Shown here one piece after another: positions 6,191 through 21,552 of a DNA stretch of 64,000 nt. Under the pieces are notes generated by a model. The model saw only the letters and a program-made list of their open reading frames with translations. It had not been told where the DNA came from and ran no database searches. Source of the DNA: Actinomycetospora lutea (GTDB taxonomy: Bacteria; Actinomycetota; Actinomycetes; Mycobacteriales; Pseudonocardiaceae). How positions within the stretch are numbered: the first letter of the stretch is position 1; the number at the start of each line of letters is the position of its first letter. The stretch covers positions 1-64,000 of the forward strand of contig NZ_JAQZAL010000003.1 of NCBI RefSeq assembly GCF_028737205.1, read 5' to 3'. The translations under genes were made by a program, and so were the position numbers.

Positions 6191-7422
6191 CGGGGCAGGT
6201 CCTTCCACGGCACGTCCTTGTCGGCGCGGGCCTCGGCGGGCAGGCCGAGCACACGCTCGGCGACGACGTTGCGGAGGATCTCGGACGTGCCGCCCTCGAT
6301 CGAGTTGGCGCGGAAGCGCAGGTAGCGCCAGCCGGTGTCGCGGCTGCCGTAGTCCTCGACCTCGGGGCGGCGCTCGGTGTAGTCGGGGTAGCGCAGGCCG
6401 TCCTCCCCGCACAGCTCGAGCTCGAGGCTCGCGCACTCCTGGTTGAGGCGCGCGTAGGTGATCTTCACGCCGGAGCCCTCGGGACCGGGCTGCCCGGCGG
6501 CCTGCTGCTGCCCCAGGCGCTCGGCGGTCAGGCGCGCCGCCTCGGTCTGCACCCAGAGCCGCAGCATCCGGTCGTGCAGCCCGGGGGTGTGCGCCTCGGG
6601 GTGCTCGCGCCACCGGGCGGCCAGGGCGCCGACGGCCCCGCTCTCGCGGGGCAGCGTGCCGCCGCCGATGGCCACGCGCTCGTTCATCAGCGTGTACTGC
6701 GCGACCGCCCAGCCCTGACCGACCTCGCCGAGGCGCTGGTCGTCGGGGACGCGGACGTCGGTCAGGAAGACCTCGTTGAACTCCGCCTCGCCGGTGATCT
6801 GCCGCAGCCCGCGGACCTCGACCCCCGGCGCGGTCATGTCCACGACGAAGTAGGACAGCCCGCGGTGCTTGACCGCCTCGGGGTCGGTGCGGGCGAGGAT
6901 GATCCCCCAGCGGGCGTGGTGGGCCATGGAGGTCCACACCTTCTGCCCGTTGAGCACCCACGCATCGCCGTCCCACACGGCGCTGGTGCCGACGCCCGCG
7001 AGGTCCGAGCCCGCGCCGGGCTCGCTGAACAGCTGGCACCAGATGTCCTCGCCGGTCCACAGCGAGGGCAGCCAGCGCTGCTTCTGCGCGTCGTCGCCGA
7101 AGCGCAGGATCGTCGGCGCGGCCATGCCGAGGCCGATGACGTTGAGCCGCGGCCGGTTCTCCGGCGCGCCCGCGCGCGCGAAGGCGGCGTCGACGGCGGT
7201 CTGCAGGCCGTTCTCGGCGCCGAGCCCGCCCAGCCCGGCCGGGTAGTGCACCCAGGCCAGGCCGGCGGCGAAGCGCTCGCGGAGGAACTCGGCGGCGTCG
7301 GTGCTCGCGGGGTCGTGCTCGGCGAGGAACTCCTCGACCCGCTGCGCGAGCGCGGCGGCGTCGGGAGGGCTGCCGGAGACGGACCGCAGCGGAGCTCGAC
7401 CATCCTGCTCAGTAGTCGTCAC
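6187..7422 (-). CDS. Acyl-CoA dehydrogenase (first subunit of pair)
   Basis: A 411-residue acyl-CoA dehydrogenase. It has the flavin/substrate loop SEPGAGSDLAG, a GQKVWTS segment, and the C-terminal signature SIEGGTSEILRN followed by ERVLGLP. GTG 7422 was chosen because GGAGGG lies about 8 nt upstream; the frame runs on to 8655 only because the opposite strand is coding there. It is the first gene of a two-gene operon with 5075-6190. It is divergent from the erythromycin-esterase-family gene, with about 70 nt between the two starts. Resembles FadE29-type subunits of heteromeric dehydrogenases; substrate unknown. Confidence 0.87.
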   Translation of the reverse strand: MTTTEQDGRAPLRSVSGSPPDAAALAQRVEEFLAEHDPASTDAAEFLRERFAAGLAWVHYPAGLGGLGAENGLQTAVDAAFARAGAPENRPRLNVIGLGMAAPTILRFGDDAQKQRWLPSLWTGEDIWCQLFSEPGAGSDLAGVGTSAVWDGDAWVLNGQKVWTSMAHHARWGIILARTDPEAVKHRGLSYFVVDMTAPGVEVRGLRQITGEAEFNEVFLTDVRVPDDQRLGEVGQGWAVAQYTLMNERVAIGGGTLPRESGAVGALAARWREHPEAHTPGLHDRMLRLWVQTEAARLTAERLGQQQAAGQPGPEGSGVKITYARLNQECASLELELCGEDGLRYPDYTERRPEVEDYGSRDTGWRYLRFRANSIEGGTSEILRNVVAERVLGLPAEARADKDVPWKDLPR

Positions 7423-7492
7423 CCTTGCACCCTCCGTCGCCGATCCGCGCCTGTCGAGTCCGGTGTCCGCCGGATCCGGCTGACCTGCGAGG

Positions 7493-8731
7493 GTGCTGCC
7501 CGTGGCCGATCTCGAGAGCTGGCTCGCCGACCACGCCCGCCCGCTCGCGGTGGCGGACGACGACCTGGCCGACGACGGGCTCGACGCCGTCGAGGCCTGG
7601 GTGCCGGCGAGCGCCGGCGCGCGGGTGGTCGCGGTCGGCCCGGCGGTGGGCGGCACGCGCGAGCTCGCGCTGCTGGCCTGCCGGCTGATCGAGAACGCCG
7701 TGCGCGACGGCGGGGCCCGCACGGTCGCGCTGCAGTCCGGCGAGTCCGCGACCACCGTGCTCGACGACCACGTGCGCCACGGGACGGGTGCGGCCGGCGA
7801 CGCGCTCGAGCGCCTCGGGTCGTGGAGCTGGAACACCCGCGAGGTGCTCGACCTCGTCCGCGTGCTCGCCGAGGTCCGCTCGGTGCCGGTGGTCGGGATC
7901 GACCCGCGCCCGCCCGCGACCGCCGTCCGCGTCGTCGGTGCCTTCCTGCGCACCGCCGCGCCGGACGCGCTGCCGCCGGTGGCCGACGCGCTCGCCGACC
8001 TCGCGCTCGGGCACGGCGGTGGACGCGACGGGGCCGCCTCCCGCGCGGCGGTCGAGCGGGTGCGGGAGCGACTGGAGCGCGACGTCCCCGCGCTCGTCGC
8101 GGCGACCTCGCCCGCGCAGCACGCCGAGGCGGTCCGCCACGCCGGGTTCCTGGCGCGCGCCGCCGAGCTCGCGGCCTGCCCGCCCGACCGCGCCGACGCC
8201 CTCGCCGGCCGGCTGATGGCCGACGCGGTGCTCGACGCCCTGGGCTCCGACGCCCCGGGCTCCGACGCCCTGGGCTCCGACGGGCGCGTCGTGCTCTGGG
8301 CGCACGCCGACCACATCGTCGTCCGCGCCGGCTCGCTCGGTGCGCACCTGCGCGAGCACCTCGGCGACGGGTACCGCGCGCTGGTGCTGTCCGCGGGGTC
8401 GGGCTCGACGCGCGCGGTCCGGACCCGGCGGGTGTTCGGGCGGGCGCGCACCCCGTCGGTGCACCGCTTCGCGGCCCCGGCGGCGTCGTCGCTGGAGGGC
8501 ACGGTGCTCGCGGCGTGCCCGCGGGACGCGCTGGTCGACCTGCGGGCGCTGGGCGAGCCCGGCGTCCCCGACGCCGTCACCGCCTGGGCCGGGGCGACGA
8601 CGTCGCGGCGCTCGGTCGGCGACGAGGTGTCGCCCGGCGCGCCCGTCGGGGCCACCGTGCCCTGCGTCCCCGGGACCGAGCTCGACGCGGTCGCCGTGGT
8701 GTCGACCGTGCACCCCGGCTGGGTGCGCTAA
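7493..8731 (+). CDS. Erythromycin-esterase-family protein, catalytically degenerate
   Basis: A 412-residue protein of the erythromycin esterase/succinoglycan-biosynthesis fold, recognisable from RLIENAV, WSWNTREVLDLV and the overall order of blocks. In active members a GE-x-x-HG motif supplies a Glu and a His, and a second Glu lies about 30 residues on. Here the first motif reads GPAVGGTRE (residues 49-57) and the second Glu position reads Gln81. All three expected catalytic residues therefore appear lost. Residues 249-263 are a triple 5-residue repeat (8237-8281). GTG 7493 is used; GTG 7502 is an alternative. It ends in a 4-nt tail-to-tail overlap with the next gene. Macrolide inactivation is unlikely. 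Confidence 0.75.
   Translation: MLPVADLESWLADHARPLAVADDDLADDGLDAVEAWVPASAGARVVAVGPAVGGTRELALLACRLIENAVRDGGARTVALQSGESATTVLDDHVRHGTGAAGDALERLGSWSWNTREVLDLVRVLAEVRSVPVVGIDPRPPATAVRVVGAFLRTAAPDALPPVADALADLALGHGGGRDGAASRAAVERVRERLERDVPALVAATSPAQHAEAVRHAGFLARAAELAACPPDRADALAGRLMADAVLDALGSDAPGSDALGSDGRVVLWAHADHIVVRAGSLGAHLREHLGDGYRALVLSAGSGSTRAVRTRRVFGRARTPSVHRFAAPAASSLEGTVLAACPRDALVDLRALGEPGVPDAVTAWAGATTSRRSVGDEVSPGAPVGATVPCVPGTELDAVAVVSTVHPGWVR
8237..8281 (+). repeat. Three tandem 15-nt units inside the esterase-family gene
   Basis: Three direct copies of GCC-C(T/C)G-GGC-TCC-GAC encode ALGSD, APGSD and ALGSD. The array keeps frame and sits in a likely surface loop, consistent with slippage expansion. 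Confidence 0.85.
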
Positions 8732-9312
8732 GCCCTGCTCGCGAGCACCGCGCGGCCGCGGGGCGAGAGCTCGTAGCCGACCGGCAGCGAGTGCGTCAGC
8801 CCCAGCGCCTTGAGCCGGCGGACGTCGGCCTTGAACGGCAGGGTCTCGCGGCCGAAGGACGCGGCCAGGTCCGGCGCCCGCACGCCGGGGCGCTCGGCGA
8901 TCGCCGCGAGCGTCGCCCACGCCCAGGGACCGTGCCCGCTGCGCGCGTCCATCGCGTCGAGGCGGCGGGCCACCGCGGCGAGGTCGTCGGCACCGGGCAC
9001 GGACGCGGCGAGCTCGGCGCGCGGGTCGGGCTCGTCGAGCAGGTGGAAGCGCACGCGGTAGAGCTCGGCGTCGTCGCCCGCGTGCCGGTCGGCCTCGGCG
9101 AGCATCGCGGCGACGGAGTCGAACCCGGCGCGGCGGGCGTCGTCCGGTCCGAGGTCCTCGCGGCGCACGACGTCCACCTCGTCGACCTGCAGCCGTCCCA
9201 CCGGCGTGCGGTACGGGCGTCCGGGCCGGACCTGCGCGCGCTTCCAGCGCCGGAAGGTCAGGTCGACCTCGCCGCGCGCGATCGGGTCGGCGAAGCGCAG
9301 GGCGAAGAGCAC
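8728..9312 (-). CDS. ASCH-like domain protein with C-terminal winged-helix-like region
   Basis: A 194-residue soluble protein. The start (LRFADPIARGEVDLTFRR, and a later Arg/Gly/Pro segment) fits the ASCH/PUA-like fold, which binds RNA or nucleotides. The last 75 residues (ATLAAIAERPGVRAPDLA ... GYELSPRGRAVL) look like a winged helix. No catalytic motif is evident. Its stop overlaps the stop of the esterase-family gene tail to tail, and its start is 13 nt downstream of the DUF4190 gene stop on the same strand. It could therefore be co-transcribed with that gene. Role unknown; RNA or nucleotide binding is inferred from fold only. Confidence 0.7.
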   Translation of the reverse strand: MLFALRFADPIARGEVDLTFRRWKRAQVRPGRPYRTPVGRLQVDEVDVVRREDLGPDDARRAGFDSVAAMLAEADRHAGDDAELYRVRFHLLDEPDPRAELAASVPGADDLAAVARRLDAMDARSGHGPWAWATLAAIAERPGVRAPDLAASFGRETLPFKADVRRLKALGLTHSLPVGYELSPRGRAVLASRA

Positions 9313-9325
9313 GGGATCGGGCCTC

Positions 9326-9973
9326 TCAGATCGAGCTGACGCCGACCACGAAGAAGAAGAGCCAGAAGAGGATCCAGCCGACGATGGGGATGTAGCCCAG
9401 CACGAGGCCGGCGATCGTCATCCCGTGGCCGGTGTTCTGCCCGCTGCTCGTCTCGCGCCAGGCCAGGTGGCCGCAGATCACGGCGGCGATCGACGCGATG
9501 CCGGCGGTGAAGAACCCGAGGATCCCGCAGACCAGCGCGGCCACCGCCAGCCCGGACACCGCCGGGCCGCCGGGGTAGGAGCCGTAGGACGCCGGCGTGT
9601 ACGGGCCCTGCGGGTAGGGCGTGCCGGGGCCCGCGGGGTAGCCGCCGTACGGGTCCTGGCCGTACGGGGCCTGCCCGTACTGGCCGTACTGACCCGAGCC
9701 GTAGGCGCCCGGCCCGTACGGGCCCGGCGCGGACTGGTCCTGCGGCGCCGCGTAGGGGTTCTGTGCCGCGCGGTCGGCCGCGTAGGGGTCGGCGTAGGGC
9801 TCGAGCGCGTACGGGCTGGGGCCGTAGGGGTCCGAGGTGTACGGCTGGGACGGCCGGTCCGCGGGCGGCGGCCCGTCCGGTGACGGGGTCGGCGCGCCCC
9901 CCGGTGGTGCGAAGGGCGCCGGGGTGTCCTGTCCGTCCCGGCCGTCGCGCTGCGGTTCCCACGGCGAGCTCAC
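9326..9973 (-). CDS. DUF4190 membrane protein with Tyr/Gly/Pro-rich N-terminus
   Basis: A 215-residue protein. The first 140 residues are low complexity, rich in Pro, Tyr, Gly and Gln with many DPYG/GPYG/GQYG units. Two membrane helices follow (about 142-168 and 186-212), with the [10 protein letters not shown] and HLAWRE pattern of DUF4190. In actinobacteria such proteins sit in the membrane with a flexible cytoplasmic tail and have no established function. The tail resembles those of the RDD protein at 45560 and of the kinase at 13171, suggesting a shared kind of low-complexity interaction region in this genome. Confidence 0.85.
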
Positions 9974-10590: not shown

Positions 10591-11118
10591 TCAGGGAAGC
10601 AGGACGAACGCCACCCGGCCCTGCGTGTCGACGCCGACGCGGGCGCCGCCGGCCGCATAGCGGTAGACGCCGGAGCCGCGCTGCGGGGGCTCGCGCAGCG
10701 CAGCGAGGAGCGCCTCGCGGTTGGGCGGCTGGGCGAGCAGCGGCGAGACCTGCGACCACGGCGCGGCGTCGACGGCGGCCGAGGGCCGGTAACGCCGCTC
10801 GACGGCCGGGAGGTCGCCGGCGCCGAGGGCGGTGTAGAGCTCGCGGACCCCGGTGGCCACGGCCGCGGGCAGGGCACGGCCGGCGGTGTCGGTGACGGCG
10901 GGCTCGCCGGCCGGGACGGGCGCGGGGGCCGGGGCCGGCGCGGCGCTCCGCACGGGCTGTGCCGGGGCCGCCGCCTGCGTGCTGCCCGCCGGGGCCACCG
11001 GCGCGGTGACGAGGGTGAGGACGGCCAGGGCCGCGGCCACGAGGATCGCGACGCCGAGGGCGGCGCTCGCGATCCAGGGTCCGCGACCGGCGCCGGCGCT
11101 CGCAGCCGGCGCGCTCAC
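10591..11118 (-). CDS. Small single-pass membrane protein with NTF2-like domain
   Basis: A 175-residue protein with one membrane helix (about residues 15-40), an Ala/Pro linker, and an extracytoplasmic domain of about 95 residues (ELYTALGAGDLPAVERRY ...) that looks like the NTF2/SnoaL-type fold used as a sensor or binding module. I take GTG 11118 as the start; the frame stays open to 11208. The only good ribosome-binding site (GAGGAGGG) precedes ATG 11162 in another frame, which opens a 15-codon reading frame ending at TGA 11117-11115 and overlapping this GTG. That suggests translational coupling to a leader peptide. It lies 153 nt downstream of the pseudokinase gene. Confidence 0.65.
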   Translation of the reverse strand: MSAPAASAGAGRGPWIASAALGVAILVAAALAVLTLVTAPVAPAGSTQAAAPAQPVRSAAPAPAPAPVPAGEPAVTDTAGRALPAAVATGVRELYTALGAGDLPAVERRYRPSAAVDAAPWSQVSPLLAQPPNREALLAALREPPQRGSGVYRYAAGGARVGVDTQGRVAFVLLP

Positions 11119-11162
11119 CGCCACGACGCCGTGACGTGCTCGGCGTTCCCCGTGCTGCTCAT
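11115..11162 (-). CDS. Possible 15-residue leader peptide
   Basis: ATG 11162 follows a strong GAGGAGGG site and encodes MSSTGNAEHVTASWR before TGA. The stop overlaps the GTG start of the next gene as GTGA. Either this is a coupled leader, or the ATG is the true start of the longer gene and one base is missing or extra between about 11119 and 11160. The peptide is not rich in one amino acid, so simple attenuation is not indicated. Confidence 0.4.
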   Translation of the reverse strand: MSSTGNAEHVTASWR

Positions 11163-11271
11163 GTGGCCCTCCTCGATCGGTCCCCGGCCGCAGTATCGGG
11201 ACGGTCACCGACCCGTGTTACCGCTGGCCGGGCAGTCTGCGTCACCCGGTCGTGGTTCGTACACCCCGCGC

Positions 11272-13140
11272 TCAGACCGGCGGCAGACGGGGCACGGTCG
11301 CGGCCGCCAGGCGGGTGGCGTCGGCGCAGAGCTCGTCGACCGGTCGCGGGCCGAGCACCGACACCTCGAGCAGCTCGACGCGCTCGCCGCCGCCCGGGAC
11401 GGTGATGGAGCGCTGGGCCACGGCGGCGTCGCAGGACGCGCCGCGCGGCGTCACCGCGACCGGGCGGCCCGCGATCTCCGTGGTCGGGGTGAACGCGGCG
11501 CGGCGCTCGACACCGAGGTCGACGGCGGTGGGCCCGCTGCCCCAGCGGCAGGCCCAGCCGCCGACGCCGGGGGCGACGCGGTCGGCCTCGAGACCGGGGA
11601 CGCCGCCGAGGTCGGCGGGCGAGAGCAGCGCGCAGGTGTCGACGGTGGTGAGCGCGTCGGGCGGGTCGGCGACCGCGCGCCGCGGCAGGGGCGTGCTGCG
11701 CTGCAGGGCGCGCACGGTGGTGGCGGTCGCCGCGTCAGCGGTGGCGCACGCGTCGGCACCGGACCCCGCGGGCAGGAGGGCGTCGACGGCGACCTGCACG
11801 CCCTCGGTCGTCACCACGATGCGCGTGCACACCCCGGGCTGCGGGGCGGGCCGCCGCACGAGCAGCGGACCGACCCGCTCCTGCGGGCCCGCGGTGACGG
11901 CCGTCGCGACCGGCTCCAGGGTCGCGACCACCGCGACGTCGCCGCCCGGCGCGCGGACGTCGAGGGTGCACGCGGCGGGGCTCCCGAGGTCGGGCACGAC
12001 CCGCGCGGACCCGGGCGGCGTGATCGCCGCGGGGTCGACGAGGCCGCACGGCGCGACGGTCGCCGGATCGCCGATCACCCCGGGCACGACCCGGTCGCCG
12101 GGCGCGGCCGACGGTGCCGGCGCGCGGAGCAGCGCGACGCCCGCGACCACGGCGACGAGCACGACGACGGCCGCGACCACCCCCGCGACCACGCCCGCGA
12201 CGACGGGCCCCCGCCGGCGTGGGCCCGCTCCGAGCGCGCGCGACGGGACGCCGAGCGGACGCGGGGCCGGGGGCGGTGTCGGGGCCTGCGCGGAGGCCTG
12301 CGCGGGGGATGGTGCGGGGGACGGCGCGGGGGACGGGCCCGGCGACGGGACCGGCGGGAGCGGGCCCACCCGGACCGTCGGGCGGTCGGGACGGCGGGCG
12401 TCGCCGGCCGGCACCGGCACCGTCGTGGCCCGCCTCGCCGCCCGAGCGTCGCCGGCCACCGGGGTCGCGATCACCTCGGTGAGGCGGGGACCGGCGTCGA
12501 GGGCCCGCAGGTCGCGGACGAAGCTCGCGCCGAGCCCGCCGGGTGCCCCACCCGGCACCCCACCAGCGGCGCCGGCCACGTGCTCGAGGACGGCCCGGAG
12601 GTCGCCGTCGTCCCCGTCGACCGGGACCGCGGCGAGCGTCGCGGCCAGGGCGCGGACGTCGTCGTCCTCGGCGGCGGCCCGGTCGTCCGGCCGCAGGCCC
12701 GAGGGCGCGCCGAGCAGCCACACCGCCCCGCCGGCCCCGACGAGCACGACGTCCGCGCCCACCCGGCCGTGGATCAGCCGCGCGGTGTGGGCCGCGGCGA
12801 GGGCCTCGGCGAGGACCAGGGCCATCGCGCGCAGCCGGGACGCCGTGACCGGGCCGGTGGCGGCGAGCCCCCGCGCGCCGGGCGGGACGTCGTGGAGGAG
12901 CCACAGCGCGTGGTCCCGGCCGGCGGCGACGTCGCGGGCCGGCGCCAGGCCGGGGTGCGGGTGCCCGGCCGCGCGCCGGACGTCGCGCGCCACCCGGGTC
13001 AGCGCCACCGTGCCCTCCCCGTCGAGCGCCACCGCGACGACGTCGCGGTCGTCCCAGTCGTCGTGCGCCGCCCGGACGGCCGCGGTGATCGCGGCCCCGA
13101 GGCGGTAGTGGCCGCCCGAGAGCGGCTCGACGTCCGTCAC
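11272..13140 (-). CDS. Membrane pseudokinase with extracellular Cys-rich domains
   Basis: A 622-residue protein. Residues about 10-230 follow the layout of a Ser/Thr kinase domain, but the catalytic loop reads IHGRVGADVVLV (H124, G125, R126) instead of HRDxKPxN. No VAVK lysine or DFG is present, so it should be inactive as a kinase. A Pro/Ala/Ser linker (255-300) leads to a membrane helix (about 311-338) and two extracellular domains with eight cysteines (including DTCALLSPADL and WACRWG), resembling DUF3558/PknH-type sensor folds. It lies 30 nt downstream of the active kinase gene on the same strand, so they are probably co-expressed. Likely a phospho-signalling partner or regulator. Confidence 0.7.
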   Translation of the reverse strand: MTDVEPLSGGHYRLGAAITAAVRAAHDDWDDRDVVAVALDGEGTVALTRVARDVRRAAGHPHPGLAPARDVAAGRDHALWLLHDVPPGARGLAATGPVTASRLRAMALVLAEALAAAHTARLIHGRVGADVVLVGAGGAVWLLGAPSGLRPDDRAAAEDDDVRALAATLAAVPVDGDDGDLRAVLEHVAGAAGGVPGGAPGGLGASFVRDLRALDAGPRLTEVIATPVAGDARAARRATTVPVPAGDARRPDRPTVRVGPLPPVPSPGPSPAPSPAPSPAQASAQAPTPPPAPRPLGVPSRALGAGPRRRGPVVAGVVAGVVAAVVVLVAVVAGVALLRAPAPSAAPGDRVVPGVIGDPATVAPCGLVDPAAITPPGSARVVPDLGSPAACTLDVRAPGGDVAVVATLEPVATAVTAGPQERVGPLLVRRPAPQPGVCTRIVVTTEGVQVAVDALLPAGSGADACATADAATATTVRALQRSTPLPRRAVADPPDALTTVDTCALLSPADLGGVPGLEADRVAPGVGGWACRWGSGPTAVDLGVERRAAFTPTTEIAGRPVAVTPRGASCDAAVAQRSITVPGGGERVELLEVSVLGPRPVDELCADATRLAAATVPRLPPV

Positions 13141-13170
13141 GGCGGTCCGATCGTCGCCTCGTCGGTGGGA

Positions 13171-15144
13171 TCAGCCGCCGAAGGTGCTCCGGGCGCGGAA
13201 CTGCACGGCCCCGAAGACGGCGTTGGACTGCTCCAGGGTGCTGGTGCGGATCTCCCAGCTGTAGTTCAGGTCCCGGTAGATGCCCGTGGAGTAGACGGTG
13301 CCGTTGGCCTCGGCGGTGTACAGCGGGCCCTGCTCCACCTGGCCGGCGCGCCACACGTCGAAGTTCTCGATGCGGGGCCCGAGCCGCGACGTGTCGTCGT
13401 AGAAGGACCGCGCCCCGGCCGCGTCGGGCCAGCGGGCGAAGATGACCCGGGCGCCCGGCGCGACGCTGGAGAAGTCGCAGATGTAGGCCTCGGTCGGGTT
13501 CGCGCCGCTGGTGGTGGTCAGCTGGTCGTTCGACGTGGTCGGCCGGCAGGTGGAGGCCGTGACGTCCGGGAAGACCTGCGCCATCGTCGCCTGGCCCGCG
13601 GGCGCGGTGGAGCCGTTGCCGCCCGCGTTCGAGCCGCCGCCGGAGCCGCCCGTGGTGACCGGCGGCTGCGCGCCGGTGGTGACCGGGCCGGGCGTCGGCG
13701 TCGGGGTGGTGTTCTGGTTGAGGATCACGACCGCGCCGACCACGACGACCAGCAGCACGGCGGCGACACCGGCGATGATCGCGACGACCTTGCCCTTGCC
13801 GCCCTTCGGCGGGGGCGGCGGCTGGCCGTACCAGCCCTGGGGGCCGCTGCCACCCGGAGGCGGCGGCGGGTACTGCCCGGTGCCGTAGCCGTAGCCCTGC
13901 GGCCCCGTGCCGGGCGGGTAGCCCGGCTGGCCGTAGCCCTGGGTGCCACCCGGCTGGGTCGGCCCCCACGCGGCGGGGGCGGGCTGCGGGCCGGAGCCCT
14001 GCGGTGACCCGAACGGCGACGGGCCCTGGGGGCCCGACGGCGGAGCGTGGGGGGTCCACGGCTGGGCGGCCTGCGGACCCGAGGTCGGCCGGGGACCGGG
14101 GACCTGGGTGGGGGTGGCGCCCTGCGGGCCGGAGGAGCCCGCCCCGGCGGCGCCCGCGGCGCCCGCCGCACCGGCGACCGCGCCGATCCCGAGCGCGCCG
14201 GCACCGGCCGCCGTGTTGCGGGTGGTCGCGTCGTCGGCGCCCCCGACCGGCGTGGTGCCCGAGGCCGGGGTCTCGCCGCCGACCGCGCGAACGGCGGCGT
14301 CGGCGAAGTCGCCGGCGGTGGCGAAGCGCTGCGCCGGGTCCTTGGCCATCGCCTGGGCGAGCACCGCGTCGAGGGCGGGCGGCGAGCCGGGCGCGACCTC
14401 CGAGAGGCGCGGCGGGGTCTCGTTGAGGTGGTCGTACATGAGGCCGGGGCCCTCGGACACGAACGGCGGGCGTCCGGCGATCGCCTCGAACAGCAGGCAG
14501 CCCAGCGCGTAGACGTCGACGCGGCGGTCCATCTCGCGGCCCACGAACAGCTCGGGGGCCATGTAGGCGAGCGTCCCGATCGCCGACCCGGTGCCGGTGA
14601 GCGAGCTCTTGGTGTCGCCGCCCATCGCGCGCACGATGCCGAAGTCGACGAGGTAGACGAAGTCGCGCCCACGGTGCTGGGTGATCAGCACGTTGGACGG
14701 CTTGACGTCGCGGTGGATCAGCCCGTCGTCGTGGGCGGCGTCGAGCGCGTCGGCGGTCTGGCGCACGATCTCGGCGGCGCGCCGCGGCTCGAGGCGGCCG
14801 TGGCGCTCGATCTCCTCGGCGAGGTCGACGCCCGAGACCAGGCGCATGTCGATGTAGAGGCGGCCGTCGATGGTGCCGAAGTCGTGGATCGGGATGACGT
14901 GCGGCGACGACAGGCGCGCGGCCGTGCGGGACTCGCGGCGGAACCGCTCCTGGTAGTCGCCGTCGTCGGCGAGACCGCCGTGGAGGCGCTTGACGGCCAC
15001 GGTGCGCTGGCGCGACGTGTCGAAGGCGCGGAAGACCTCGCCCATCCCGCCGCGACCGATGCGTTCCTCGAGGCGGTAGGGCCCGAACGTCTCCGCGGGC
15101 TCGCCCGACGACGGCGGCGTCTGGCCCGGGGCCTCGGTGCTCAT
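13171..15144 (-). CDS. Receptor-type Ser/Thr protein kinase
   Basis: A 657-residue kinase. The domain spans residues 23-285, with the Gly-rich loop GRGGMGEVF, Lys52 (VAVKRL), HRD at 144-146, DFG at 167-169 and MAPEL. A Gly/Pro/Tyr/Gln-rich juxtamembrane stretch (335-447) precedes a membrane helix (452-475). A Thr/Gly linker leads to an extracellular domain (520-657) with Cys533 and Cys556, probably disulfide-bonded. That domain recurs in the product of 15272-16180. ATG 15144 is preceded by AGGAG; the frame extends to 15219 but without a site. The product probably phosphorylates Thr residues on neighbours such as the FHA-ABC transporter. Confidence 0.92.
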   Translation of the reverse strand: MSTEAPGQTPPSSGEPAETFGPYRLEERIGRGGMGEVFRAFDTSRQRTVAVKRLHGGLADDGDYQERFRRESRTAARLSSPHVIPIHDFGTIDGRLYIDMRLVSGVDLAEEIERHGRLEPRRAAEIVRQTADALDAAHDDGLIHRDVKPSNVLITQHRGRDFVYLVDFGIVRAMGGDTKSSLTGTGSAIGTLAYMAPELFVGREMDRRVDVYALGCLLFEAIAGRPPFVSEGPGLMYDHLNETPPRLSEVAPGSPPALDAVLAQAMAKDPAQRFATAGDFADAAVRAVGGETPASGTTPVGGADDATTRNTAAGAGALGIGAVAGAAGAAGAAGAGSSGPQGATPTQVPGPRPTSGPQAAQPWTPHAPPSGPQGPSPFGSPQGSGPQPAPAAWGPTQPGGTQGYGQPGYPPGTGPQGYGYGTGQYPPPPPGGSGPQGWYGQPPPPPKGGKGKVVAIIAGVAAVLLVVVVGAVVILNQNTTPTPTPGPVTTGAQPPVTTGGSGGGSNAGGNGSTAPAGQATMAQVFPDVTASTCRPTTSNDQLTTTSGANPTEAYICDFSSVAPGARVIFARWPDAAGARSFYDDTSRLGPRIENFDVWRAGQVEQGPLYTAEANGTVYSTGIYRDLNYSWEIRTSTLEQSNAVFGAVQFRARSTFGG

Positions 15145-15271
15145 GCGGCGCTCTCCTGGATCACGGTGAAAGTCACCGAGAGTATGTGCGATGACCCGAA
15201 GGCAGGCCATAGCCCTCACACATTTCGTAGAGTTCCCTTACTCCATGTGACAGTTCTGAGGGCCGGAACGG
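15145..15271. promoter_or_regulatory. AT-richer upstream region of the receptor kinase gene
   Basis: This 127-nt gap is clearly less GC-rich than its surroundings. It carries a short dyad GGTGA-AAG-TCACC around 15165-15177 close to the ribosome-binding site. It is the likely promoter of the kinase-pseudokinase pair; exact -35 and -10 boxes could not be fixed. Confidence 0.45.
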
Positions 15272-16180
15272 TCATCGGCCGAGCGGGAGCTGCGCGCCGG
15301 GCAGCAGGTGCATCGCCGGGAACATGCGGTTCGAGTCATCCAGCGAACGGGTGACGATGTCGAACGTGTAGGGCCGATCGGCGTACGCGGCGGTGGCGTA
15401 GACCGTGCCGTCGGGCGCAGTGCGGCGGTGCAGCGGACCTTGTCGCTGGTCGGCGCCGTGACCCCAGACGGTGATGCCGTCGAGGCTCGGGCCCCCGATG
15501 CGCTGGTCGTCGTGCCACCGTCGGGCGTCGGCGGCCGCCGACCACTCCGCGTAGTAGACGAACCCGCCCGGGACCGCCGCGCCGTAGTCGCACAGGACCA
15601 CCGCGACGGGGCGGGCACCGCTCGACGTCACGTACTGGTCGGCGCCGATCGGGTAGGGCGCGCACCGGTCGCCGAGCGCGGTGACGTCGGGGAACGCCGC
15701 GGCGAGCGTGCCGGTCGGCGCGGACGGGACGGCCGGCGTGGCGCCGTCGGCGGCGGCGGAGACGGGGGCGGGGGAGACGGGGGCGGCGGAGACGGGGGCG
15801 GGCAACGGCGACGTCCCGGGCGGCCAGCCGACCACGACGACCATCCCGAGCACCCCCAGCAGCCCGACGACCAGACCGCCGGCGGCCCACACGACCAGGC
15901 TCCACCGGCGACGGGGCGCCGGGGCGGTGGTCGGGTGCCCGCCGGTGACGGCGGGCCGGACGCCCGGCGCGGGGCTCGGCCGGTCGCGGTGGTGCGCCGG
16001 GCCCCCGGGCGCGGTCCGCGGCGACGGCGACGGGCGCCGGGTCGGGACGGCGCTGGGCACGAAGGGCCGGTCCGGCCGCACGGTCTCGTCGGGGACCCGG
16101 ACGTAGCGACCGGTCGCCGGCGCGAGCACCGGGTGGTCGCCGGTGCGGGTGCCGGGGCGCTCGGGCCAGGTGGTGCTCAT
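15272..16180 (-). CDS. Single-pass membrane protein with the kinase's sensor module
   Basis: A 302-residue protein without a catalytic domain. A Pro/Arg-rich cytoplasmic region (1-90) leads to a membrane helix (93-119), a Pro/Ala linker and an extracellular domain (158-292). That domain aligns with the sensor of the kinase at 13171-15144: FPDVTA at the start, two Cys (173 and 197) with the same 23-24 residue spacing, TSSGA-x-P, CDY/CDF, VW-x-x-G, QGPL, DGTVY/NGTVY, and a Ser-Asn near the end. ATG 16180 overlaps the stop of the FHA-ABC gene (ATGA), so it is translated with the transporter. Role unknown; a ligand-binding partner or decoy for the kinase is inferred. Confidence 0.8.
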   Translation of the reverse strand: MSTTWPERPGTRTGDHPVLAPATGRYVRVPDETVRPDRPFVPSAVPTRRPSPSPRTAPGGPAHHRDRPSPAPGVRPAVTGGHPTTAPAPRRRWSLVVWAAGGLVVGLLGVLGMVVVVGWPPGTSPLPAPVSAAPVSPAPVSAAADGATPAVPSAPTGTLAAAFPDVTALGDRCAPYPIGADQYVTSSGARPVAVVLCDYGAAVPGGFVYYAEWSAAADARRWHDDQRIGGPSLDGITVWGHGADQRQGPLHRRTAPDGTVYATAAYADRPYTFDIVTRSLDDSNRMFPAMHLLPGAQLPLGR

Positions 16181-18741
16181 CGTGCCCTCCCGGCGCGCGG
16201 GTCGAGGCGGCGCAGGAGCAGTGCGGTGACGACGACGAATCCCACGGTGACGCCGGCGAGGGCACCGAGGTCGAACAGCCAGGTGGCGGCGTCGTGGTCC
16301 CACAGCGGCTCGGCCTCGGTGTAGGGCGGCGGGACGCCGGGGCCGCTGCGCACGCCGATCGTCGAGGCGCCCATCGCGAAGCCCCACCGCGCCGGCACGA
16401 ACCAGGACAGCTGGGCGAGGACGGGGCTGTCCTGGATCTGCAGCAGCGCGCTCGAGAGGATGAACTGCAGCATCGCGAGCAGCACGAGCAGCGGCATGCC
16501 GCGGTCGGCGTTGTCGATCCACGCCGACACCGCGAGGCCGACCGCCATGCTCGCGATCGTGACCCCGGCGATCGCGACGAGGATCTCCAGGCGCGGGTCG
16601 CCGAGCACGACCGCCTCGTCGGGACCTGGCCGGCCGAGCTGGCCCAGGACGCCGAGCACGATGCCCTGCAGGCCCGTGACGATCCCGAGGACGACGACCT
16701 TGGAGAGCAGGTAGGCGGTGCGCGACAGCCCGATCGCCCGTTCCCGGCGGTAGATCTCGCGCTCCTTGACCAGCTCGCGGATCGAGGCGGCGGACCCCAT
16801 CAGGGCGGCGCCCACCACGAACACCATGAGCAGGCTCTGCGGCGCCCCGGGCACGCCGCGCATCTGCTCGGCGAGCGAGAGGCCGGTGTCCACCGGCAGC
16901 GCGTGCGACAGCGCGGCGAGCAGCAGCGGCAGCGCCACCATGAAGATCGTGTACTGACGGTCGGCGGCGATCACCGCGAGGTAGCGCCGGCACAGCACCC
17001 CGAACTGCGCGATCGCCGACTGCTGGCGCGGCGGCGGGGCGGTCGCCGCCGGCGCCGGGGCGCGGGCGGCGGGACGCGACGGCGGCGGCGTGCCGATGTA
17101 GCGCTCGCCCAGCGGGGAGCGTCGGAACCGCTCCGCCCACTCGGCACCGGAGCGCCGCTCGAGCAGGAGGAAGAGGTCGGCGAAGTCGGTGACGCCGAAG
17201 TAGGTGAGGGCTTCCCGGGGTGGTCCGAAGTAGGCGGTGGTGCCGCCGGGGGCGAGCAGCAGGAGGCGGTCGCAGACGTCGAGGTTGGCGACGTTGTGGG
17301 TGACCACGACGACGGTGCGGCCGTCGTCGGCGAGGCCGCGCAGGGTGTGCATGACCGATTTGTCGAGGCCGGGGTCGAGGCCGCTGGTGGGTTCGTCGAG
17401 GAAGAGCAGGGAGGGGCGGGTGAGCAGTTCGAGGGCGACGGAGGTGCGCTTGCGCTGGCCGCCGGACAGGGAGTCAATGCGCTGGTCGGCCTGCCCGTCC
17501 AGCCCGAGCTCGCCGATCACCGCGGAGATCCGCCGGTCGCGCTCCTCGTCGGTGGTGTCCGACGGGAACCGCAACCGGGCGGCGTAGGCGAGCGCGCGCC
17601 GCACCGTGAGCTGGGGGTGCAGGATGTCGTCCTGGGGCACGAGCCCGATGCGCTGGCGCAGCTCGTCGTAGTCGGCGTACAGGTCGCGGTCGGCGTAGGT
17701 GACCGCGCCCTCGTCGGCGGGGCGGAAGCCGGTCAGGGCCCGCAGCAGCGTCGACTTCCCGGCCCCGGACGGCCCGACGACCGCGAGCAGGCTGTTCTCC
17801 TCGAGGGCGAAGCCGACGTGGTCGAGCAGGGTCCGGCCCTTCGCGGTGCGCACCACGAGGTCCCGGGCGCGGAACGCGATCGCGCCGGCGTCCTCGCGCT
17901 CGACGAGCTGGTCGCCGTCGAGGTGGAACAGCGCGTGCCCGATCCCGACGAGCATGCCGGGGCGCAGCGCCACGCGACGGATGCGCTGCCCGTCGACATA
18001 GGTGCCGTTGGGGCTGCCGAGATCGATCAGCTCCCACCCGCCGGCACCGTCGGCCCCGTCGACCGCTCTGAGCTCGGCGTGGTGGCGCGAGACGAGCAGG
18101 TCGCTGACGACGACGTCGTTGTCGGTCTCGCGGCCGATCCGGATGCGGGCGGGGGCGGTGGCGACGGGGGTGGTCGGCGCGGGCGCGGAGGACGGGGCGG
18201 GCGAGGGGGTGGGCAGGCGGTGGACCGCGGAGAGCCGCCCCTGCCGGCTCGGACCGTCCGGTGCCGGGCCCGGGTCGGGGGTCGCGGGCTCGGAGCGGGG
18301 CCGGGACGGGCGCGCGGCCGGCGGGGCGAGCGGGGCGAGCATGGGCACCGGCGGCGCGCCGGGGTCGGCGCCGACCGCCCGCAGCGACACGTGTACCTCG
18401 GGTCCGCCGACACCGAGCGTGAGCGTCAGCCGCGGCGTGGCGCCGGGCGAGAGACGGAGCTGCTGGAGCCGCTCGCCGTGGACGAACACCCCGTTCTGGC
18501 TGCGGTCGATCAGCTCCCACCCGGTGGGCAGCGGCCGCAGCTCGACGTGCACGCGGGACACGAGGGGGTGGACGACCTGGAACCCGGCGGCCTCGTCGCG
18601 GCCGATCGTGAGCGCCTGCCCGGGGGGCACCACGAGGCGGCGATCACCGTGGCCGAGCTCGAGCTGCGGTGCCGTCAGCGGTCGGCCGCGCGCCGCGCGA
18701 GGACCTGCAGCCGGCCGGGGCACGGGCTCCACGGGATGCAC
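16177..18741 (-). CDS. FHA-domain ABC transporter, Rv1747-like
   Basis: An 854-residue fused transporter. Two FHA domains (about 42-120 and 200-275, each with GR, SR-x-H and N-G motifs) bind phosphothreonine. The ABC domain (about 290-520) has Walker A GPSGAGKST, signature LSGGQ, and Walker B LLFLDEP; a C-terminal ABC2-type permease has about six helices. This matches mycobacterial Rv1747, whose FHA domains read kinase phosphorylation. GTG 18741 is chosen for GGGAGG 6 nt upstream; GTG 18786 is an alternative but sits too close to its site. Codons at 17200-17475 differ from the rest. Probably exports an envelope component under kinase control. Confidence 0.9.
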   Translation of the reverse strand: MHPVEPVPRPAAGPRAARGRPLTAPQLELGHGDRRLVVPPGQALTIGRDEAAGFQVVHPLVSRVHVELRPLPTGWELIDRSQNGVFVHGERLQQLRLSPGATPRLTLTLGVGGPEVHVSLRAVGADPGAPPVPMLAPLAPPAARPSRPRSEPATPDPGPAPDGPSRQGRLSAVHRLPTPSPAPSSAPAPTTPVATAPARIRIGRETDNDVVVSDLLVSRHHAELRAVDGADGAGGWELIDLGSPNGTYVDGQRIRRVALRPGMLVGIGHALFHLDGDQLVEREDAGAIAFRARDLVVRTAKGRTLLDHVGFALEENSLLAVVGPSGAGKSTLLRALTGFRPADEGAVTYADRDLYADYDELRQRIGLVPQDDILHPQLTVRRALAYAARLRFPSDTTDEERDRRISAVIGELGLDGQADQRIDSLSGGQRKRTSVALELLTRPSLLFLDEPTSGLDPGLDKSVMHTLRGLADDGRTVVVVTHNVANLDVCDRLLLLAPGGTTAYFGPPREALTYFGVTDFADLFLLLERRSGAEWAERFRRSPLGERYIGTPPPSRPAARAPAPAATAPPPRQQSAIAQFGVLCRRYLAVIAADRQYTIFMVALPLLLAALSHALPVDTGLSLAEQMRGVPGAPQSLLMVFVVGAALMGSAASIRELVKEREIYRRERAIGLSRTAYLLSKVVVLGIVTGLQGIVLGVLGQLGRPGPDEAVVLGDPRLEILVAIAGVTIASMAVGLAVSAWIDNADRGMPLLVLLAMLQFILSSALLQIQDSPVLAQLSWFVPARWGFAMGASTIGVRSGPGVPPPYTEAEPLWDHDAATWLFDLGALAGVTVGFVVVTALLLRRLDPRAGRAR
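17200..17475 (-). other. Codon-use mosaic tract in the ABC domain
   Basis: Within the transporter gene, the segment from just after the signature motif to the end of the ABC domain uses GAA, AAA, ATT, GGA and CCA plus TCC for Ser. The flanks use GAG, AAG and TCG almost exclusively. The reading frame and motifs are intact. The pattern suggests a conversion tract from another ABC gene. Confidence 0.5.
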
Positions 18742-18916
18742 CGGGTTCCTCCCTCGCGGCCGGGCCCCGCGGCCCGACGACGTCACCTCCCTCGGAGCGC
18801 GCGCCCGAGACGGTGACAGTCTGTGTTCAGGAGGGGGGACTCATCCAGAGGGTTCGCGATAATCGCGCCGATCTATCACTGCCGGTGACCGACGACGTCC
18901 GTGTGGGTGGCTCGAG
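18742..18916. promoter_or_regulatory. Upstream region of the FHA-ABC operon with a 13-nt palindrome
   Basis: An AT-richer gap before the transporter gene. It contains the perfect palindrome CGCGATAATCGCG at 18855-18867 and, on the minus strand, a GATAGAT-like -10 candidate just upstream of it. The palindrome is placed where an operator would act on the transporter operon. No known regulator motif is recognised. Confidence 0.45.
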
Positions 18917-19297
18917 TCACGCCGGACGGGGCAGCGGGGCGGTGGTCGTGCGGCGCGCCGGGGTCCCGTCGGGGACGACGGCGGACAGCGGGGAGCCGAA
19001 CGGGCGGGTCAGCGGGTCACGGCGCGCGGTGGCGTTGTCGATGGCGTGCACGTGGCCGGTGACCTGCACCGACCCGACCTCCGCGAGGCGGCGGTGCACC
19101 CGGTCGAGGCGGGCGCGCAGGGCCGCGACGTCGTCGGCCTTGCGCTGCCGCGCCCGGCGGGTGTGGCGGGGTCCGGCGGCCGATGGCGCGCCGTCGTGGG
19201 CGGCGGTGTCACCCTCACCGGCCGGGCCCACCGCGGCGAGGGCGGCGGGGCGGACGGAGCGGACGGAGCGGGCGGTGGTGGTCGAGCGGCGGAACAT
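18917..19297 (-). CDS. Small basic protein with short coiled coil
   Basis: A 126-residue Arg/Ala/Thr-rich protein of no recognised family. A helical segment (KADDVAALRARLDRVHRR and following) could form a coiled coil; the rest looks disordered. A GAGGGA site lies about 11 nt before the ATG. It lies between the PASTA kinase gene and the FHA-ABC operon on the same strand, 157 nt downstream of the kinase stop. Its many Thr and Ser residues would suit a kinase substrate, but this is only inference. It could also be a chance frame, since codon bias is weaker than in its neighbours. Confidence 0.45.
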   Translation of the reverse strand: MFRRSTTTARSVRSVRPAALAAVGPAGEGDTAAHDGAPSAAGPRHTRRARQRKADDVAALRARLDRVHRRLAEVGSVQVTGHVHAIDNATARRDPLTRPFGSPLSAVVPDGTPARRTTTAPLPRPA

Positions 19298-19454
19298 CGT
19301 GGATCACGTCCCTCGGTGCGACGGGCCGACGTGCGGTCACCCTCTGCATCGAGCGCCACGCGGCCGCTCTTGATCGTCCGTCCGGTGGACGCCGGGCCCG
19401 GTCCCCGTCCACCGAAGAGACGCGTCACCTCGCGGACACGACGTCGGGCCGCGC

Positions 19455-21374
19455 TCAGAAGAGCCCGTCGAAGACGCCGTCGTCCCCCGTGCCGTCGCCG
19501 GTGTCCCCGGTGTCGCCGCTGCCGTCACCGCCGGACGCACCGCCGGACCCGCCGCCACCCTCGCCGCCGGCCCCGGAGCCGTCGCCGGACCCGCCCGACG
19601 GTGCGCCCGAGGAGGGCGACGACCCGGACCGGACGACGTCCATGGTCACCGTGCTCCCGCGCGGCACCGCCGTGCCGACGCCCGGCGCCACGGTGACGAC
19701 GGTGTCCGGCGCGCCGCCGCTGTCGACCTGGCGCACCGAGACCTCGAGCCCGACGCCCTCGAGCGTGGCCTCCGCGGACGCCCGCGAGCGGCCGACCACG
19801 TCGGGCACCTGCAGCGTCGGGCGGCGCTGCCCGATGACGAGCTCGATCGCGTCGCCCGGGGGCCGCAGCGAGCCGGGCACCGGGTCCTGCCCGACGACCT
19901 GGCCCACCTCGGTGGGGTCGCTCGTCTCGCGCAGGCGCGGCACGGGGGTGAGCACGAGCCCGGCGCCCTCCGCCGCCACCCGCGCGGCCTCGGGGCTGCG
20001 GCCGACGAGCAGCGGCACCTGCACCAGGCCCGGCCCGCGGCCGATGCGCAGGGTCACCGCCGACTCCTCGTCGACGCGCTGCCCGACGTCCGGCGACGAG
20101 CCCACGACGCGGTCGACCTGGTCGGGCGGCGACGCGGTGGGCACGAGGATCGGGGCGAGGCCGGCGTCGGCGAGCGCGCGGACGGCCTCGTCGCGGCTGA
20201 GCCCGACGAGGCGGGGCACCTCGGTGTCGGCCGGGCCGAGCAGCCACCACCCGCCGCCGAGCAGCACCGCGAGCGCGACCCCGAGGAGCGCGAGCCGGCG
20301 GCGGGGCCGCGCGGGTGTCGCCGCGGCGTGGGCGCCGGTGCGCCCGCCGTCCGCGGCCGACCGGCGCCCGGACCGCGCGAGCTCCGGGGTCACGAGCGTC
20401 TCGGCGGTGTCGGCGAGGTCGTCCCGGCGCCGGGCCCGGCGTCCCGGGTCGGTCCAGCGGCCGGTGTCCCAGCCCCGGCCGGTGTCGTCCGGGTCGTGCT
20501 CGCCGAGCACGGCCGGCGCGTCGGGCCGCTCGCCGGCGAGCACGCGCAGCAGGTCGGCGCGCATGTCGGCGGCGGTCGGGTAGCGGTTGTCGGGGTTCTT
20601 CGCCATCGCGCGGCGCACGACGGCCTCGAGCTCCGGCGACACGACGACGCCGGGCGGGGTGAGCGTGGACAGCATCGGCGGGTCCTCCCGCACGTGCTGG
20701 TAGACGATCGCGACCGGGCTGTCGGCGGTGAAGGGCGGCTCGCCGGTGAGCAGCTCGAACAGCACGCAGCCCGCGGCGTACACGTCGGCGCGCGCGTCGA
20801 CCTCCTGGCCGAGCCCCTGCTCGGGCGAGAGGTACTGGGCGGTGCCGATGACCATGTCGCCGGTCAGCGCCGGACCGGTCTCGGTGAGCGCCCGGGCGAT
20901 GCCGAAGTCCATGACCTTCACGACGTCGCCCGGCGTGATCATGATGTTGGCGGGCTTCACGTCGCGGTGCACGACGCCGCTGTCGTGGCTGTAGCCCAGC
21001 GCCGCGCAGACGTCGGCCATCACCGCGCACGCGCGCTCCGGCGGCATCGGCCCGTGGACGCGGAGCAGGTCGCGCAGCGTCGACCCGCTCACGTACTCCA
21101 TGACGATGAACGGCAGCCCGATGCCCTCGGCGGCCACCTCGCCGGTGTCGTAGACCGCGACGATCCCCGGGTGGTTGAGCCCCGCGACGTTCTGGGCCTC
21201 GCGCTCGAAGCGCAGCCGGAAGGAGGGGTCGCGCGCGAGGTCGGAGCGCAGCACCTTGACGGCGACCTCACGGCCCAGGCGCACGTCGAGCCCGGCGTGC
21301 ACGTCCGCCATGCCGCCACGGCCCAGGCTCGGGCCGAGCTGGTACCGCCCGGCCACCAGCGTCGCCTGCGACAT
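19455..21374 (-). CDS. PASTA-domain Ser/Thr kinase, PknB-like
   Basis: A 639-residue kinase. The catalytic domain (about 11-275) has GRGGMADVH, VAVKVL, HRDVKPAN, DFGIAR and SPEQ. A juxtamembrane Arg/Asp/Thr-rich linker leads to one membrane helix (about 362-380). Three PASTA repeats follow, each opening with VP-x-(L/V)VG and ending in an (A/V)GL segment. The C-terminal tail is Gly/Ser/Asp-rich. PASTA domains bind muropeptides or lipid II and place the kinase at sites of wall growth. PknB-type kinases usually have four PASTA repeats and sit beside pbpA/rodA; this one has three and a different neighbourhood, so it is a paralogue rather than PknB itself. Confidence 0.9.
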   Translation of the reverse strand: MSQATLVAGRYQLGPSLGRGGMADVHAGLDVRLGREVAVKVLRSDLARDPSFRLRFEREAQNVAGLNHPGIVAVYDTGEVAAEGIGLPFIVMEYVSGSTLRDLLRVHGPMPPERACAVMADVCAALGYSHDSGVVHRDVKPANIMITPGDVVKVMDFGIARALTETGPALTGDMVIGTAQYLSPEQGLGQEVDARADVYAAGCVLFELLTGEPPFTADSPVAIVYQHVREDPPMLSTLTPPGVVVSPELEAVVRRAMAKNPDNRYPTAADMRADLLRVLAGERPDAPAVLGEHDPDDTGRGWDTGRWTDPGRRARRRDDLADTAETLVTPELARSGRRSAADGGRTGAHAAATPARPRRRLALLGVALAVLLGGGWWLLGPADTEVPRLVGLSRDEAVRALADAGLAPILVPTASPPDQVDRVVGSSPDVGQRVDEESAVTLRIGRGPGLVQVPLLVGRSPEAARVAAEGAGLVLTPVPRLRETSDPTEVGQVVGQDPVPGSLRPPGDAIELVIGQRRPTLQVPDVVGRSRASAEATLEGVGLEVSVRQVDSGGAPDTVVTVAPGVGTAVPRGSTVTMDVVRSGSSPSSGAPSGGSGDGSGAGGEGGGGSGGASGGDGSGDTGDTGDGTGDDGVFDGLF

Positions 21375-21552
21375 GCGCTCCTCGTGCCTCCGCTCTCGGC
21401 TCGGGACCCGACGACTCGCCGGGTCACGTCGGGGTCTCGTCGTGGTCTCCGGCCAGCATCACCCGGACGGGTCCAACGGCGCGGGAGCGGGTCGGCAACG
21501 GCGGGTCGCCGTTTCGGCGCGAGAGTTCGCCCGTTCGTCGGGTCCGGTGCGG

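Follow-up and report, generated by a model that had tools for sequence, protein, structure and literature searches.

We analysed a stretch of 64,000 nucleotides from Actinomycetospora lutea (contig NZ_JAQZAL010000003.1, positions 1 to 64,000, our contig C40 of a 6.53-Mb genome; henceforth the window), in which seven minus-strand open reading frames form a block at 10591-21374 with the transcription order G, F, E, D, C, B, A. Its gene content suggests a more elaborate version of a mycobacterial control system, and we give even odds to the reading that it encodes a phospho-gated exporter of the PknF/Rv1747 type in which D would serve as a kinase-less co-receptor and B as a pseudokinase docking protein. 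By comparison with its relatives, receptor D is the remnant of a second receptor kinase of the same type as C, whose kinase died and was then deleted in this lineage. An earlier note on this DNA had described seven minus-strand genes in a row, and a check of the open reading frames confirmed their coordinates and order. The features discussed below are as follows.

Gene G, 19455-21374, minus strand: membrane Ser/Thr kinase with three PASTA repeats and catalytic motifs present (Pfam, NCBIfam NF033483, translation)
Gene F, 18917-19297, minus strand: small protein with Ser/Thr and Arg, no transmembrane helix seen; orthologue in 10/10 block genomes
ARRDPLTRPF decamer of F, 18998-19027, minus strand: identical in 10/10 orthologues, candidate phospho-site (coordinates counted by hand)
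Gene E, 16177-18786, minus strand: Rv1747-like half transporter with two FHA domains, an ABC domain and a transmembrane domain (Pfam and solved-structure matches)
ATGA, overlap of the E stop and the D start, 16177-16180, minus strand: overlap of -4 in 7/7 genomes
Gene D, 15272-16180, minus strand: kinase-less transmembrane receptor with cytosolic tail, transmembrane helix and sensor
Sensor module of D, 15275-15712, minus strand: delimited by alignments
Conserved 18-base element upstream of C (GCACATACTCTCGGTGAC), 15172-15189, minus strand: promoter-like by position (coordinates counted by hand)
Gene C, 13171-15144, minus strand: receptor Ser/Thr kinase with the same sensor as D and intact catalytic motifs (Pfam Pkinase)
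Sensor module of C, 13174-13590, minus strand: delimited by the sensor search
Gene B, 11272-13140, minus strand: pseudokinase by sequence, transmembrane helix, cysteine-containing ectodomain
RLTEVIAT (RxT[ED]VIxT) juxtamembrane motif of B, 12463-12486, minus strand: candidate phospho-docking site for an FHA domain
Gene A, 10591-11124, minus strand: single-pass transmembrane protein with a small extracytoplasmic domain; start taken from orthologues

The seven proteins were scanned against Pfam with a reporting limit of E<=1, at which A, B, D and F matched no family; transmembrane helices were called by eye from the sequence. Handles beginning with G, L and C plus a number denote genomes, loci and contigs; genomes G166, G206 and G207 and loci L015 (A. 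lemnae), L014 (A. straminea) and L013 (A. succinea) were counted once.

Kinase loss in receptor D

D is a protein of 302 residues made up of a cytosolic tail, one transmembrane helix and a sensor module that is 41% identical to that of C, in agreement with the earlier note, which had paired a receptor kinase with a protein carrying the same module. That note had also treated D as a free sensor and an independent part of the system. Relatives of D point to another origin: in G189, G135 and G204 its frame is 554, 563 and 566 residues long and begins with a kinase domain, and such a domain is recognised by Pfam at L018 (Pkinase, E 5.9e-21) and by tblastn at L019 and L030. At these three loci HGA or HGG stands in place of HRD in the catalytic loop and there is no APE motif, which makes their D proteins pseudokinases, i.e., recognised kinase domains that have lost the catalytic aspartate. 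A tree places the D kinase in one group with its counterparts in C, L017 and L036 (support 95), outside those three (support 97). In G000, G207, G166, G206 and G203 the kinase domain is gone, and the kinase-less proteins keep the first residues (MTVTLPPR in G203 compared with MSITLPPR in G189), an RYV motif before the transmembrane helix, and the sensor. We then counted the losses on a tree of the DUF5685 gene found beside the block, rooted by the eight genomes of the genus that lack the block and assuming that a lost domain cannot return; the tree gave two losses, with and without G and C added. The second is best carried by G203, because D is cut in G178 and lies at a contig edge in G205. 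With dead-kinase versions in three relatives and two losses, D is thus a receptor stripped of its kinase and not an independent component. The full-length dead-kinase relatives also led us to reject the view that the free sensor is a novel type of protein.

Both losses spared the transmembrane helix and the sensor. In 7/7 genomes with E and D on one retrieved contig, the two genes overlap by the same -4, whether or not D has a kinase, and in G203 the match to E ends at the base where D begins. Pairwise NG86 (Nei-Gojobori) estimates, which carry no error bars, gave an omega of 0.26 (G000/G207) and 0.25 (G166/G206) for the D sensor in kinase-less pairs, meaning that the sensor of kinase-less D is under purifying selection in the two pairs measured. 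The corresponding values for C, also from two pairs, were 0.03 and 0.02 for the kinase and 0.44 and 0.18 for the sensor. Judging from the omega values of D and B (for B see below), both are real genes under constraint, looser than that on the C kinase.

An Rv1747-like transporter and its paralogue

E (869 residues) carries two FHA domains, ABC_tran and ABC2_membrane according to Pfam, arranged in a single chain as FHA1, linker, FHA2, nucleotide-binding domain and transmembrane domain, as in Rv1747. Among solved structures it matched the Rv1747 domains FHA-2 (6cah, E 1.6e-11) and FHA-1 (6ccd, E 1.4e-6) in the right order, and Ser/Thr kinases are encoded nearby, with C two genes downstream and G two genes upstream. 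The analogy with PknF-Rv1747 stands because E is an Rv1747-like FHA-FHA-ABC protein with these structure matches; together with the conserved gene order described below, they sustain the kinase-transporter linkage that had been proposed from the sequence. From this homology, E probably reads protein phosphorylation. Its own genome holds one strong and three weak matches to the E FHA module.

The linker between FHA1 and FHA2 has an invariant core, QGRxSAVHRLP, in the seven aligned orthologues. Within the window region 17880-18675, QGRLSAVHRL lies in this disordered linker; it is kept in E and E2 and, more loosely, in the FHA-ABC protein of L022, and is a possible candidate for an intramolecular docking motif.

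E2 is an FHA-FHA-ABC paralogue about 67% identical to E. It directly follows A in G207, G166, G178 and G204 (L013:15183-17597; L015:12659-15355), is on a different contig in G205, survives as a remnant in G189 and G206, and is decayed at loci L018 and L029; it was not seen after A in G135 and is absent downstream of A in the window. A tree rooted with L052 from another genus, in which A. straminea E was represented by its longest open frame only, placed E and E2 as sisters within the block clade. Either copy can be missing: E is lost and E2 kept in G178, E is kept and E2 lost in G000, G189 and G135, and neither looks intact in G206. In A. straminea, E (L014:6814-9443) occupies two overlapping frames (6814..7545 and 7206..9443), the break falling in the FHA1-FHA2 linker and reflecting either a real frameshift or an assembly error.

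Protein B, its juxtamembrane motif and gene A

B (622 residues) consists of a kinase-like part, a transmembrane helix and an ectodomain. In B, VAVK is replaced by VAVAL, HRD by HGR or HGG, and DFG by LGA or VGA, so that it lacks the beta3 lysine, the HRD aspartate and DFG. A profile comparison matched B to kinases at a modest E of 7.8e-4, compared with 0.54, 0.66 and 0.18 for three shuffled controls. By sequence, with its replaced catalytic residues and its profile match, B is a pseudokinase, as in the earlier note, while the structure model leaves the fold unconfirmed. Omega was 0.36 and 0.29 for the pseudokinase part, 0.22 for the ectodomain, 0.66 for the juxtamembrane part and 0.63 for the tail. 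When the two halves of the ectodomain were compared, a single match of 29 columns resulted (E 0.004), and we do not claim a tandem repeat.

Across seven orthologues, 9 of the 96 columns between the kinase-like part and the transmembrane helix are invariant, and five of these fall within nine columns, RxT[ED]VIxT. This island is notable and not overwhelming, as 191 of 20000 column shuffles reached the same clustering. RxT[ED]VI itself is present in all seven B orthologues that are complete there, a count that leaves out G203 and G205 (contig edges) and G178 (no B). FHA domains accept the pattern pT-x-x-I/V (pT, phosphothreonine), and the motif is a plausible FHA target. Passages of PMC5549992 discuss pT+3 residues, V among them, in FHA binding.

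The start of A is most likely the GTG at 11124, where its orthologues begin, which displaces an earlier start at 11208. We dropped the NTF2-like label that A had been given, since neither A nor its L013 orthologue matched a Pfam family at E<=1.

The losses described so far could also mean that an ordinary PknF-Rv1747-type pair (C and E) sits beside decaying genes, D and B being degrading duplicates without a role. In keeping with decay, D lost its kinase in two lineages, evolves fast overall and is missing its start region in G178, B lacks its transmembrane helix and ectodomain in two species and is a remnant in G178, and E2 has likewise been lost or has decayed in several genomes. Role-less duplicates fit poorly with the omega of the D sensor after kinase loss (0.25-0.26 in two pairs) and of the B pseudokinase part (0.29-0.36), with two deletions that both left the transmembrane helix and sensor in place, with an E-D overlap kept with and without the kinase, and with the conserved juxtamembrane motif of B. 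We consider this explanation unlikely.

The kinases, small protein F and upstream elements

C (657 residues, ATG at 15144) matches Pfam Pkinase, and VAVK, HRD, DFG and APE, the residues of an active Hanks-type kinase, are present in 10/10 orthologues. G matches Pfam Pkinase and three PASTA repeats, scores 531 bits against NF033483 (curated cut-off 450), which identifies it as a PASTA kinase, and has its catalytic motifs as read from the translation. From these residues, both look like functional kinases. The genome contains 23 kinase domains in 6.53 Mb, from which we obtained P ~7e-4 for at least two within a given 11 kb; two kinases in one block are thus more than chance would give.

F has 126 residues, and its decamer ARRDPLTRPF is a single stretch that is invariant in 10/10 orthologues, making its threonine a candidate phospho-site. 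The element GCACATACTCTCGGTGAC recurs, with no more than two substitutions as counted by eye in the alignment, ahead of C in the 10 block genomes and of another receptor kinase, L017; the region upstream of the L036 receptor kinase does not match it likewise. It is possibly a promoter shared by C and L017, and a scan with sigma-70 promoter and terminator consensus patterns found no match. Upstream of G, the window contains a conserved stretch at 21375-21560 that includes the near-palindrome TTGGACCCGTCCGGGT, a possible operator or promoter.

This layout bears on whether the block is one unit. Two independent modules may simply be neighbours, with the PASTA kinase G (and F) sensing the cell wall and E-D-C-B-A forming a receptor/exporter, which we regard as a serious possibility although the odds are against it. 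The spacing agrees with such a division, as G and F are separated by 51-398 bp (123-398 bp in the seven genomes with the full order) and F and E by 130-256 bp in those seven, whereas E and D overlap and C and B are close (21-87 bp apart in 7 genomes and ~60 bp in G189 and G204, with the B start taken from sequence matches); conserved stretches also lie upstream of both G and C. Set against this, G and F occur in 10/10 block genomes, neither was seen next to DUF5685 in the other 8, where the search was confined to that site, and F, with its invariant threonine motif, adjoins the FHA transporter.

The sensor module family

In an alignment of 15 diverse rows, 11 sensor columns are invariant, two of them cysteines. 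The module had no Pfam or NCBIfam match, and its best hit among sequences of solved structures was an unrelated protein (E 0.042). Its model has a pLDDT of 83, and Foldseek returned no confident fold match (best E 0.018 at a TM of 0.31). Among the Foldseek matches were DcrB, CyanoP and MTC28, which we take to be Mog1/PsbP-like folds; a relation to a known domain is not established.

The nearest named locus is that of Actinomycetospora succinea, with a sensor 85% identical. A search for the family found it in 15/390 genomes and 2/46 genera, and a search for the block order in 2/397 genomes, namely that of the window and one in which the match is partial and contains a stop; both scored the best 10 candidates per genome (19 in another), which possibly overstates absence in other genera. 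Other receptor kinases of the genus, L017 and L036, also carry the sensor, and L035 and L037 have two diverged copies. At L035:5524-7677, in the window's own genome (contig C51), a receptor kinase bears two tandem divergent copies.

In the second genus the sensor is a protein of ~200 residues with a lipobox-like start and a shared neighbourhood (L021:9884-10480, L041:8821-9411 and L042:8237-8830 were read). It lies away from block genes in 5/5 loci from 5 genomes, and the 19 kb of one FHA-ABC locus in that genus contain no kinase resembling C or G, both of which weigh against a wider reading. This stand-alone form, small and with a lipoprotein-like start, would suit the idea that B and D are membrane scaffolds or ligand traps without an effect on the transporter, the sensor binding an envelope ligand for storage or presentation. 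We think this quite improbable, given that in 7/7 genomes the start codon of D shares bases with the stop codon of the transporter gene and that E, D and B are all damaged in the same genome, G178.

Conservation across the genus

The sensor was found in 10/18 genomes of the genus, including that of the window. The full G-F-E-D-C-B-A order on one contig is present in seven of the 18 (G000, G207, G166, G206, G189, G135 and G204), with E frameshifted in G206 despite the full order, and parts of the block or a damaged copy occur in three further genomes, so the order anticipated in related genomes was indeed recovered. Two of these, G203 and G205, have consistent pieces on short contigs (the assemblies are fragmented, 84% and 83% complete). 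In the third, G178, the genes G, F, C, A and E2 are kept, while E is without its ABC part, D without its start, and B is reduced to a remnant of ~40 codons; E, D and B are thus co-lost, in this one genome only.

The eight sensor-less genomes have no block gene beside the DUF5685 gene, the genome-wide search having covered the sensor, the E FHA module and DUF5685, and not G, F, B or A. Another FHA-ABC gene is present in five of these eight (G042, G075, G201, G098 and G151), and G200, G118 and G202, the last of which is 59% complete, have weak FHA matches only. All six non-block FHA-ABC loci have a C-like kinase match 1.7-4.3 kb away, and one has a second within 0.1 kb. One such cassette, L022:6836-12927, encodes a kinase ending in DUF4333, a 359-residue open reading frame with a hydrophobic stretch between kinase and transporter, the FHA-ABC protein and a protein with a weak FHA match. 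We considered a horizontally moved block with an empty site: seven loci from the eight non-block genomes (L049 was left out) match the window only in the DUF5685 gene and one overlapping antisense frame, so that no empty site could be defined.

Proposed mechanism

In the reading that we favour, a ligand at the sensor modules of C and D would set the dimer state of C, with D, as a kinase-less co-receptor, tuning C within C-D pairs, either as a buffer or as a dominant-negative partner. C, perhaps with G, would phosphorylate threonines in the disordered FHA1-FHA2 linker of E, as well as B (at RxT[ED]VI) and F; the FHA domains of E would then bind the phosphorylated sites, and the transporter would cluster with B, much as phospho-MviN recruits FhaA and as PknF drives Rv1747 clustering. 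The likeliest guess for the exported substrate is a cell-envelope component. The writing by C (perhaps G) and reading by E are suggested by homology, and the docking by B and the tuning of C from outside by conservation.

Several observations weigh against this reading. The E linker has no invariant threonine across the 7 aligned orthologues and contains 2-10 threonines per orthologue. A. straminea has a frameshifted E and an E2 remnant, and may therefore have no intact transporter here. In G189/G135 the D sensor reaches an omega of 0.59 (0.32 for the dead kinase), and D as extracted evolves faster than C (0.43-0.68 vs 0.15-0.28). The B model has a pLDDT of 52, with kinases only among the weak Foldseek matches (best E 0.84), and to this come the two species in which B is truncated. 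The G-F and F-E gaps allow separate transcription units. Finally, 8/18 genomes of the genus lack the sensor, and since the block characterises a single clade, common ancestry could by itself account for the conserved order. Of the new phospho-controlled export system proposed earlier, only a part holds, namely a variant kinase/FHA-exporter block with extra receptor parts, in which D is not an independent component.

We also put forward, tentatively, an evolutionary extension: a duplicated receptor may have lost catalysis and then, twice independently, its whole kinase domain, turning into a co-receptor dedicated to controlling the remaining kinase and, via this kinase and B as a pseudokinase docking protein, an FHA-gated exporter. 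If true, this would be a bacterial counterpart of the kinase-dead co-receptors of animals and plants. The block offers a natural series in which the same sensor occurs in a receptor with an intact kinase, a dead kinase or no kinase, beside its likely output, the FHA transporter, and it is relevant to the open questions of what bacterial receptor kinases sense and how bacterial pseudokinases act. The favoured mechanism predicts that the C and D ectodomains pair, that RxT[ED]VI in B is phosphorylated, and that the E FHA domains bind the resulting phosphopeptide.

Comparison with known systems

Among the papers listed by our literature searches on Rv1747/FHA-ABC proteins and pseudokinases, and on Actinomycetospora Ser/Thr kinases, none describes such a block, as judged from titles and abstract openings. 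The closest parallel is PknF-Rv1747 of Mycobacterium tuberculosis, in which, according to passages of PMC3908365 and PMC9312465, a Ser/Thr kinase gene likewise lies near an FHA-FHA-ABC half transporter with the same domain order. Parts of these reports describe Rv1747 as sharing an operon with pknF, being phosphorylated by PknF and requiring both FHA domains (PMC3908365), and a condensation of Rv1747 1-310 that PknF drives and PstP reverses (PMC9312465). By comparison, our block adds a kinase-less receptor, a pseudokinase, a PASTA kinase, a small protein and a sensor without a Pfam or NCBIfam match; its kinase C is encoded after and not before the transporter, and the linker threonines of E are not conserved in place.

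A second parallel is MviN (Rv3910)-FhaA, where, in sections of PMC12599244, PknB phosphorylates the tail of the MviN pseudokinase and thereby recruits the FHA domain of FhaA, whose inhibiting role is disputed in part of PMC11898655. Both systems combine a membrane pseudokinase (in the case of B, by sequence) with an FHA reader, and in both a candidate threonine docking motif lies just outside the pseudokinase part (PMC12599244, PMC11898655). Unlike MviN, B lacks a flippase part, the transporter would itself act as the reader of B, and the motif in B is putative; B also differs from the MviN/ActPs3 type (flippase part, VALT for VAIK) in having VAVAL and, by eye, one hydrophobic stretch. As in the actinobacterial ActPs1 pseudokinases, all three catalytic residues of B are replaced (PMC12599244, in the part describing that group), whereas B has no PQQ-related domain in Pfam; the likeness lies in the replaced residues. 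G, above the NF033483 cut-off, resembles the PknB/Stk1-type PASTA kinases and differs from them in having three PASTA repeats and in standing in this block beside a DUF5685 gene. Overall, the block varies the known pairing of a kinase with an FHA exporter, and it preserves an unusual history of a bacterial receptor losing its kinase.

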